Shown: one piece after another, positions 62,554-63,896 of the stretch | Numbering within the stretch: the stretch's first letter is position 1 | How the letters are laid out: each line of letters opens with the position of its first letter | Assembly (NCBI GenBank): GCA_010909725.1 | Contig: JAACMV010000011.1 | Span: forward strand, 558,001-622,000 | Length of the DNA: 64,000 nucleotides | Source: Picochlorum sp. 'celeri' | Taxonomy: Eukaryota > Chlorophyta > Trebouxiophyceae | Direction: 5' to 3' | Translations under genes and position numbers: made by a program | Notes under the pieces: generated by a model | Told to the model about the DNA's origin: nothing | The model's input: the letters and a program-made list of their open reading frames with translations, nothing else | The model's database searches: none

Positions 62554-63231
62554 TTATTCGTCTTCTAATCCTTCACTGCCTTGGTTGGTGGTGTCATCAC
62601 CATTGTTTTCCTCCTCGTCTTCCTCATCTGTGAGAGTTGCTTGAAGGATTGTACCATCAAGCTTTTTGAGATGAGGGAGACGTTTCATCATTTCTTGAGT
62701 ATACTCTGCCAAATTATTCTTCTTCTGATACCTTTTATAGAGAGGGTTACCTATGAACAACACATCCGATAGGTGGGGCAGACAACTCAACCTGTCAATT
62801 TCCTGCCAGTCTGAAATCTTGTTGTTTGACATGTACAGTACATTCAGTTTTTGGAGGCACTCAATACCCTCAAGCCGCTCAATAGCATTATAACTGATCC
62901 AAAGCTGTTCCAGGGTTCCTGCGACTGGCTGTATTCCATCCAGCTTGCGAATACCATTCCGTCCCACAGACAAGATTTTGAGGGGCATGGTATCAGACAA
63001 ATTCTGGATCCTATCTATATTGTTCGTGGACAATGATAATTTTTCACACGATGTACAATCTTTGAGAATGCTATCCATCACTTGGATGGGAGGATACTGC
63101 CCGCTGAGATCAATGGCGGTGGCTGCACACTGGTCTGAGAGGTCTCCAAGGTTTGACAGGGCAGAAGCACAGCCTTGTACCTTTTTCTTCTTCGGGGCAG
63201 CGGCGCTCTTCGTGCCCTTTTTCGTCGTCAT
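62554..63231 (-). CDS. LC1: Axonemal outer-arm dynein light chain 1 (LRR)
   Basis: This 225-aa leucine-rich repeat protein closely follows dynein light chain 1: YPPIQVMDSILKDCTSCEKL, LSTNNIDRIQNLSDTMPLKI, LSVGRNGIRKLDGIQPVAGT, LEQLWISYNAIERLEGIE, VLYMSNNKISDW and the cap VLFIGNPLYKRYQKKNNLAE with LPHLKKLDG. LC1 binds the motor domain or stalk of outer-arm dynein and microtubules in motile cilia. The tail is acidic (TDEEDEEENNGDDT), and the head is Lys-rich (APKKKKVQ). Presence of this gene suggests flagellated cells or a flagellated stage. One exon. Confidence 0.92.
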   Translation of the reverse strand: MTTKKGTKSAAAPKKKKVQGCASALSNLGDLSDQCAATAIDLSGQYPPIQVMDSILKDCTSCEKLSLSTNNIDRIQNLSDTMPLKILSVGRNGIRKLDGIQPVAGTLEQLWISYNAIERLEGIECLQKLNVLYMSNNKISDWQEIDRLSCLPHLSDVLFIGNPLYKRYQKKNNLAEYTQEMMKRLPHLKKLDGTILQATLTDEEDEEENNGDDTTNQGSEGLEDE

Positions 63232-63441
63232 TATATTATATTATACGCTGTTGTTTTATAATAGTCAAGATGGATCCATGTATGATACATGTGTTTCCTA
63301 TCATGTGGCAGTGGTCAACATGGGGTGCATGTGTTGTTGACCATCATCATGCATGTATACAACGCACATGGCAATTCAAATAGAAGGCCGTCGGCTATAT
63401 GCGGTACATTCTGTCAGTTCAAGAGGAGAGCGAAGAAAAAC
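63232..63441. other. Intergenic gap, no gene seen
   Basis: Upstream of LC1 and downstream (minus strand) of the tRNA terminator. It has repeated CATG-rich stretches (63280-63370). No supported gene. Confidence 0.4.
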
Positions 63442-63449
63442 AAAAAAAA
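63442..63449 (-). terminator. Pol III T8 terminator after the permuted tRNA
   Basis: On the minus strand eight T follow the tRNA 5' half by seven bases. A T-run of this length is the standard RNA polymerase III stop. Confidence 0.7.
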
Positions 63450-63456
63450 GTTCGAG

Positions 63457-63551
63457 TACGAAGGGCATGCTCTAAGACCACTGAGCTACAGAAGCGTCAG
63501 GTAGAATGTTTTTCGTGCTTCTGGAGAGAATCGAACTCCCGACCCCACCCT
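63457..63551 (-). tRNA. Circularly permuted tRNA-Thr(CGU)
   Basis: On the minus strand the 3' half (63551-63516) comes first: anticodon-stem GGGTG, variable GGGTC, T-arm GGGAG-TTCGATT-CTCTC, acceptor CAGAAGC and discriminator A. A 20-nt linker (63515-63496) follows, then the 5' half (63495-63457): acceptor GCTTCTG, TA, D-arm GCTC-loop-GAGC, A, anticodon stem TGCCC, and TTCGTA. Joined at position 37/38 they give a full cloverleaf with a perfect 7-bp acceptor stem and loop UUCGUAA, anticodon CGU. The anticodon stem has two G-U pairs. The CGTA next to the junction can pair with TACG in the leader. Such genes are known from Cyanidioschyzon and prasinophytes; the precursor is cut and circularised. 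Confidence 0.88.
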
Positions 63552-63574
63552 GTTCCGTACCCATCACTCTACCA

Positions 63575-63624
63575 GCTCACCCTGAAAGGCCCTATCGCGA
63601 TAGGAAAGGCCTTTGTGGGTGAGC
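63575..63624 (-). repeat. Long stem-loop upstream of the permuted tRNA
   Basis: Arms GCTCACCCACAAAGGCC and GGCCTTTCAGGGTGAGC (17 nt, two mismatched pairs) enclose 16 nt with the palindrome CTATCGCGATAG. The stem-loop ends 23 nt before the tRNA 3' half, so it may be in the primary transcript leader. Confidence 0.85.
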
Positions 63625-63896
63625 AAGACGGGACAGCGAGCGAAAATTCGAATTTTTGACTGTACTAATTCAGGTCGAAAACACATTTTGGCTTATACGA
63701 CCTCTAGAGAGGTTAAAAAAGCAAAGTAAAAGGTACCATACGTGACTATAGTGCATCAATATACATGTAGGACAACATGGTGGGGTCAAAAACCAACCAC
63801 GCAATTGGTTGAGGATGGAATTTCATCATTCCACAACACACAGCACATCACCTCCTGTGTGAGAATACCATCACACACGCATGCAGCGTTACATAT
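63601..63896. other. Intergenic gap upstream of the permuted tRNA
   Basis: A perfect 14-bp palindrome AAAATTCGAATTTT lies at 63643-63656. No supported gene, though Pol III upstream elements could lie here. Confidence 0.4.

Follow-up and report, generated by a model that had tools for sequence, protein, structure and literature searches.

The closest described systems are the circularly permuted tRNA genes of algae, in which the 3′ half lies upstream of the 5′ half. The sections of the 2014 review drawn upon here count 34 such genes in six algae and one archaeon, and give linkers of 1–74 nt, compared with 20 nt for the Thr(CGU) gene described below (PMC3978253). In the red alga C. merolae, 11 of 43 tRNA genes are permuted, including type II genes for Thr(CGT) and Thr(AGT) (PMC3978253). 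Picochlorum has permuted genes with the same two Thr anticodons, likewise type II with a 37/38 junction and no extra intron, the linkers being 31 and 24 nt in C. merolae and 20 and 14–15 nt in Picochlorum (PMC3978253). The likeness is one of anticodon, junction, intron status and linker length. C. merolae employs types I to IV, whereas all 18 permuted sequences found in the green Picochlorum are of type II, the only type sought by our finder. That both Thr genes are permuted in a red as well as in a green alga calls for testing whether they arose by convergence or share an origin.

Within the green lineage, the permuted genes of Ostreococcus, Micromonas and the Bigelowiella nucleomorph are nearly all of type II, as in Picochlorum (PMC3978253); nucleomorph permuted tRNA-Ser genes have also been described separately (PMC4494063). 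Permuted Cys(GCA) is common to O. lucimarinus, O. tauri, M. pusilla and Picochlorum, and Leu(TAA), Arg(TCT), Ser(GCT) and Ser(AGA) are permuted both in this group and in Picochlorum (PMC3978253). In contrast, the review sections drawn upon list no permuted Thr, Ala, Gly or Tyr gene for the group, all of which occur in Picochlorum, and they give 2 to 6 genes per genome against 18 sequences here (PMC3978253). Within the Trebouxiophyceae, to which Picochlorum also belongs, permuted tRNA genes were reported in 2025 for Auxenochlorella UTEX 250-A after an incomplete tRNAscan-SE set; a standard tRNA scan is incomplete in both algae (PMC12636532). The archaeon Thermofilum pendens shares the swapped halves and a splicing-type junction motif, whereas its junction lies at 59/60 and CCA is encoded, as against 37/38 and no CCA in the Thr(CGU) gene of Picochlorum (PMC3978253).

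The class is already known. Among the papers listed by searches of the open literature, a scope that takes in few subscription journals, no title or abstract opening concerned permuted tRNAs in Picochlorum, and in PMC13353863 the term "permuted tRNA" occurs in the reference list only. As far as seen, what is new is the Picochlorum host, the size of the set, a linker of 128 nt and an upstream AAATTC element common to permuted and linear genes.

The tRNA-Thr(CGU) locus and its recognition

On the minus strand of the window, that is, the whole 64-kb stretch of DNA analysed, a leader is followed by AGGGTGGGGTCGGGAGTTCGATTCTCTCCAGAAGCA (63551-63516), a 20-nt linker, GCTTCTGTAGCTCAGTGGTCTTAGAGCATGCCCTTCGTA (63495-63457), seven bases and a T8 run (Table 1). 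Rejoining GCTTCTGTAGCTCAGTGGTCTTAGAGCATGCCCTTCGTA and then AGGGTGGGGTCGGGAGTTCGATTCTCTCCAGAAGCA yields a complete 75-nt tRNA with anticodon CGU. An earlier note on this DNA had claimed just such a gene, with the 3′ half upstream of the 5′ half on one strand, a 20-nt linker, a 37/38 junction and a T8 terminator after the 5′ half, and all the coordinates hold. The perfect 7-bp acceptor pairing and the complete D- and T-stems that it had read were recovered by our structure finder (7/7, 4/4 and 5/5), and the joined anticodon loop is indeed UUCGUAA with anticodon CGU. The anticodon stem pairs 5/5 with G-U allowed, taking in U27-G43 and G28-U42. The rejoined halves make a standard tRNA with its conserved bases, and the alignment to the covariance model R1 (see below) marks no non-standard pair; CCA is not encoded after A73. 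The bases G1-C72, C2-G71, G35 and U36 agree with what we take to be the known threonine identity elements. With its 3′ half upstream on the same strand, a junction at 37/38, a short linker free of T runs ≥4 and a T run after the 5′ half, the locus belongs to the type II permuted class, and the reading of it in the earlier note as a permuted gene of the algal kind is upheld.

Table 1. Features of the permuted tRNA-Thr(CGU) locus (positions in the window)
Feature	Positions	Strand	Basis or remark
AAATTC element	63650..63655	minus	104 nt upstream of A38; 105 in the C19 allele
Long hairpin in leader/upstream region	63575..63624	minus	Fold; C19 allele 1 base longer
Leader segment GGGUACGG and 3-nt bulge AAC, before A38; relaxed bulge-helix motif at the 3′ cleavage site	63552..63562	minus	Predicted MFE fold
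3′ half of tRNA-Thr(CGU), positions 38-73, 36 nt	63551-63516	minus	R1 covariance match; ARAGORN on rejoined sequence
Contents of 3′ half: A38, anticodon-stem 3′ strand, 5-nt variable loop, T-arm, acceptor 3′ strand, A73	63516..63551	minus	
Linker (intervening sequence) between A73 and G1, 20 nt	63515-63496	minus	Sequence; without T run ≥4
5′ half of tRNA-Thr(CGU), positions 1-37, anticodon CGU, 39 nt	63495-63457	minus	R1 covariance match; ARAGORN on rejoined sequence
Trailer, first 3 nt, paired with leader in the same helix	63454..63456	minus	Predicted MFE fold
T8 run, likely RNA polymerase III terminator	63449-63442	minus	Starts 8 nt past position 37; sequence

A 225-aa minus-strand reading frame (62554-63231) starts about 210 nt downstream of T8. 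Three plus-strand frames of 40-86 aa (63289-63504, 63353-63475 and 63399-63659) overlap the locus on the opposite strand, and no evidence was found of their being genes.

Recognition of the gene relied on R1, a covariance model trained on ten linear tRNAs from this genome, each rotated at 37/38, three of them after removal of introns. Each training row carried 10 + 10 nt of its own flanks as linker, with the permuted structure written out (alignment A3), and the training set contained neither a Thr tRNA nor a permuted gene. R1 matched 63551-63457 with 56.3 bits and E 5.4e-17 (the E-values of the tool are rough), its sole match at E ≤ 10 on both strands of the 64 kb. The finder score was 49, against 37 both for the only other match listed in the window and for the reversed window. 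On the rejoined 75-mer, flanked by CCA and poly-A, ARAGORN called tRNA-Thr(cgt), as it did on the 95-nt stretch treated as a circle. On the linear 64-kb window it found no tRNA, and it was blank at all four Thr loci (two permuted Thr genes on both haplotypes). Rfam at gathering score likewise gave no match in the 64-kb window, as is expected from the permuted order. In genomes of this kind, much of the tRNA set can escape a standard scan. A preceding alignment of 13 rotated tRNAs (A2) was discarded: two Glu rows and one Asp row have a shorter variable loop, which displaced their anticodon stems, and the other ten rows were retained as A3; L029 was excluded from the rotated set, its loop reading CCG against the ARAGORN label CCA.

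We consider this a working nuclear tRNA-Thr(CGU) gene, circularly permuted, type II, with its junction at 37/38, and put the probability at roughly 0.9. Its transcription, passage through a circle, order of processing and charging are what we infer for such a gene.

Predicted junction motif and proposed maturation

An unconstrained fold of 63650-63440 gave −72.9 kcal/mol (z −2.05; 5/200 shuffles equal or better). In this predicted fold the leader segment GGGUACGG pairs with positions 33-37 and three trailer bases, the bulge AAC follows, and beyond it the anticodon stem opens with A38-U32. The junction would thereby present one 3-nt bulge and an 8-bp helix, a predicted bulge-helix-bulge in its relaxed form only, with the 3′ cut beside the bulge. 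The duplex with its own leader was computed at −20.4 kcal/mol, against a mean of −10.3 with the leaders of other genes, which sets this gene apart in the leader swaps. Over 18 loci (both Arg(UCG) copies and L004, which is allelic to L003, were included, L160 was not) the own leader beat the control mean at 13 and failed to do so at 5, the overall means being −10.6 (own) and −9.1 (control); no uniform leader-trailer motif was found over these 18 loci.

The genome encodes a splicing endonuclease, as judged from a Sen34 homolog (best PDB match E 6.2e-16) and a Sen2 homolog (E 2.6e-14). The Sen2-like reading frame occurs at seven places (G000:C10, C16, C21, C25, C9, C12 and C26, C12 being a 25-kb contig), which we read as a duplicated segment or unplaced assembly pieces.

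For the maturation, RNA polymerase III would probably make one RNA comprising leader, 3′ half, linker, 5′ half and trailer, with its end at T8. In this transcript, the acceptor stem would close over the linker while the anticodon stem joins leader and trailer. The Sen2/Sen34 splicing endonuclease would then cut after 37 and before 38, tRNA ligase would seal 37 to 38 to give a circle, RNase P and tRNase Z would excise the linker from this circle, and CCA would be added afterwards. The circle pathway has been documented for red and green algal permuted tRNAs (PMC3978253). An inverted order, in which RNase P and tRNase Z remove the linker first and the paired halves are ligated at 37/38 without any circle, is conceivable, since the primary transcript is predicted to fold with an intact acceptor stem and T-arm, the elements that these enzymes read. 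We regard it as improbable in view of the circular intermediate detected for permuted tRNAs of both algal lineages (PMC3978253).

The second threonine gene and the origin of the swapped order

The search for copies covered 27,412,692 bases in 30 contigs, a phased diploid assembly with partner contigs; the published phased diploid Picochlorum celeri amounts to 27.43 Mb, with 46% GC, divided into two 15-scaffold sets (PMC7225527). The GC of the window is 43.5-47.3% in 4-kb steps, and its phosphoglucomutase is 99% identical to the counterpart in Picochlorum sp. SENEW3. A 141-nt stretch with the permuted Thr(CGU) gene recurs identically on C19, the partner of C11, and is thus present on both haplotypes. 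Two weaker matches of this query, on C18 and C14, revealed a second permuted Thr gene with anticodon AGU. Its 3′ half and linker are related to those of Thr(CGU), with compensating changes such as G28-U42 to U28-A42. The two genes have the acceptor stem in common, their T-arms are near-identical and their linkers are alike (CGAAAAACATTCTACC and CGAAAAAATTCTAT), features which make a single permuted ancestor of both probable. No match to the permuted Thr(CGU) gene emerged when viral contigs were scanned for its pattern.

According to the earlier note, a linear tRNA-Thr(CGU) gene elsewhere would speak against its reading. Such a gene was searched for and not found: with the rejoined tRNA as query, a DNA search of the genome at E ≤ 10 yielded nothing beyond the two halves of the permuted gene itself on each haplotype, and the same search for a linear Thr(AGU) returned only halves at the permuted places, two candidates in each case having passed a first look. 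The sensitivity of these searches is modest, since neither Thr query recovered the other Thr gene. A tRNA-family search of the genome, in which 63 of 866 candidates were scored so that its counts are lower bounds, gave at least 34 matches below 1e-3 at no fewer than 18 loci by our own count, and no linear Thr gene was among them. Sixteen of 18 linear tRNA loci counted occur on two partner contigs.

The stems of the permuted set were compared in alignment A4, in which 14 of the 18 permuted sequences were aligned to R1 (L082, L084, L112 and L160 were excluded). In A4, 95.9% of the cells were paired and 18 of 21 pairs had changed on both sides; in the acceptor helix all cells were paired and 6 of 7 pairs had changed on both sides. 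The covariation score was 0.933, against 0.281 for shuffled and 0.116-0.219 for slid controls; being fitted to the structure, the alignment leans towards it, and in the Leu and Ser genes, which have long variable arms, the placement of the anticodon stems is imperfect. This covariation points to selection acting on the rejoined molecule.

These results bear on whether the locus could be a silent leftover of tandem tRNA duplication, its outer halves having decayed and the real tRNA-Thr coming from a linear gene. Tandem duplication with loss of the outer halves is a proposed origin of permuted genes (PMC3978253), a remnant could hold its sequence for a while, and the search for linear Thr genes is limited in depth. 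Against this explanation, neither the DNA nor the tRNA-family searches found a linear Thr gene, every stem of Thr(CGU) is intact, the stems covary across the permuted set, and the leaders and trailers of 18 loci retain no trace of decayed outer halves: leaders scored a mean of 12.1 against their own 5′ half, 11.9 against those of other genes and 12.6 against shuffled ones, and trailers 11.1 against their own 3′ half, 11.6 against others and 11.8 against shuffled ones. We therefore think a remnant very improbable and favour the working gene.

Still less credible is a split tRNA, with the halves made as separate transcripts and joined in trans. The halves are not contiguous in tRNA order, as a split tRNA would have it, yet that class draws its halves from separate places with promoters of their own, whereas here they lie 20 nt apart with neither a T run ≥4 nor AAATTC in the linker, and one transcript is the simpler account. 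That an assembly or sequencing artefact swapped the halves can be dismissed almost entirely, the order being identical on both haplotype contigs and recurring in 16 other gene sequences as well as in Thr(AGU), which lies on a different contig pair.

The permuted set and its upstream element

The genome-wide set is a more interesting result than the Thr(CGU) gene alone. A partial census gave 18 permuted gene sequences, which cover 16 anticodons and share the 37/38 junction, and 22 linear loci, so that 18 of the 40 tRNA gene sequences found are permuted; as the finder is restricted to the type II (37/38) junction, other junction types would be missed. The set comprises Thr(CGU), Thr(AGU), Ala(AGC) twice, Ala(CGC), Ala(UGC), Arg(UCG) twice, Arg(UCU), Leu(AAG), Leu(CAG), Leu(UAA), Ser(AGA), Ser(GCU), Gly(GCC), Cys(GCA), elongator Met(CAU) and Tyr(GUA). 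The Met(CAU) is termed elongator as the linear Met gene (L018) resembles the initiator by eye. The two Ala(AGC) sequences (L136 and L148) differ from one another and are oppositely oriented, one on C4 and the other at a comparable position of its partner contig C30; each has an exact T-arm motif that is absent from the listing of the other contig. If they are divergent alleles, the count becomes 17 of 39.

The census proceeded through T-arm motif scans, fetched stretches, R1, the structure finder and ARAGORN. Of 126 stretches fetched, mostly one per haplotype pair, 16 hold an accepted permuted gene, and the two Thr genes came in addition from the 141-nt DNA search; one T-arm scan gave 85 places, one of which was read. 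R1 was run on 106 of the 126 stretches (20 with the two Thr loci, then 86), and the last 20 were assessed by the finder and ARAGORN without a reversed control. Accepted permuted genes scored 47-52 with the finder, reversed sequences reaching 36 (148 loci). Within the fetched stretches, ARAGORN output was read by us as linear, intron-containing Arg(ACG), Ser(UGA), Pro(CGG) and Gln(CUG) genes (L086, L109, L137 and L138). The linear anticodons of L029, L033, L062, L086 and L109 were read by eye and differ from the ARAGORN labels; L127, a doubtful case, is left out of the count.

Several candidates were set aside. Those with finder scores of 38-40 (L049, L009, L010, L017, L026, L027, L028 and L127) lie near the best reversed scores of 36 and 37, and none of the eight was counted. 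Partial R1 matches below 1e-3 in L062 (E 1.6e-4) and L086 (E 6.9e-5) were read as linear genes. A linear tRNA-Cys(aca) call by ARAGORN in L045 was dismissed because it uses the T-arm of the permuted Gly(GCC) gene at that place, and the Gly gene has the better stems. L049 (G000:C5:396460-396870) is a weak permuted candidate with anticodon UCC (Gly), its finder score of 40 being near background.

In this partial census Thr, Ala, Tyr, Cys and elongator Met were accepted solely as permuted genes. The cell cannot lack these tRNAs, and since no linear versions were accepted the permuted genes are probably in use, a conclusion weakened by the limits of the search; no His gene was found, linear or permuted, so genes are missing from the census. 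As far as seen, the set is the largest of its kind when measured against the 11 of C. merolae, the comparison being made without the Auxenochlorella number.

Two permuted tRNA-Arg(UCG) copies in opposite orientation (L082 and L084; G000:C8:59143-59573 and 537455-537885) have a 128-nt linker, compared with 74 for the longest in the table of the 2014 review (PMC3978253). R1 misplaced the 5′ half of both owing to this long linker; the finder located it once the limit had been raised to 300 nt. By eye the linker resembles a series of hairpins.

Upstream of the genes, AAATTC was found within 70 nt in 9 of 17 permuted and 7 of 15 linear genes, where 0.31 and 0.27 would be expected from the window, an expectation that is somewhat low as it was computed from the whole, gene-rich window. 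In three further permuted genes, Thr(CGU) included, it occurs at −96 to −105 only, and in five of the 17 there is none within 120 nt. The Thr(CGU) element lies beyond the long hairpin, farther away than in most permuted genes. AAATTC is the most widespread of the 4096 hexamers in the 17 permuted leaders, and the reverse complement is absent from all 17. Downstream of every one of these genes, a T run ≥4 begins within 37 nt. From this distribution, AAATTC is a probable external polymerase III promoter element. If common to linear and permuted genes, such an upstream promoter would account for the tolerance of swapped A and B boxes, an argument also made for C. merolae (PMC3978253). AAATTC also occurs inside the linker in 2 of the 17 (counting one of the two Arg(UCG) copies), so that the idea of a linker retaining the promoter of a second copy is at most weakly supported.

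At slightly better than even odds, these strands combine into a joint reading. Picochlorum would have the most permuted tRNA set so far (at least 18 of the 40 sequences found, covering 16 anticodons and of type II throughout). Permuted genes would be the sole source of Thr, Ala, Cys, Tyr and elongator Met tRNAs, and translation of the whole proteome would depend on RNA circles; an AAATTC promoter common to linear and permuted genes would free them from the order of the A and B boxes and so permit permutation, and the 128-nt Arg(UCG) linker would exceed those of the 2014 review. Our confidence is no higher since this joins several claims, of which "only from permuted genes" and "largest set" are limited by search depth and by the Auxenochlorella figure. 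With nearly half of the tRNA genes found being permuted in a fast-growing green alga, questions such as transcription without ordered internal promoters, the essentiality of the circle and the origin of permutation become testable in Picochlorum.

Two minor observations concern T-arm-like sequences. The T-arm motif GGTTCGAGCCC is recurrent near contig ends (for example C14:4638, C15:4130, C18:4687, C27:4152, C4:1105093 and C30:1116453), and six fetched stretches (L071, L089, L097, L101, L105 and L106) gave weak R1 matches with E 0.007-0.26. The T-arm-like GGTCCCGGGTTCAAA abuts the first base of tRNA-Asn and tRNA-Phe genes (L009, L010, L025 and L028).
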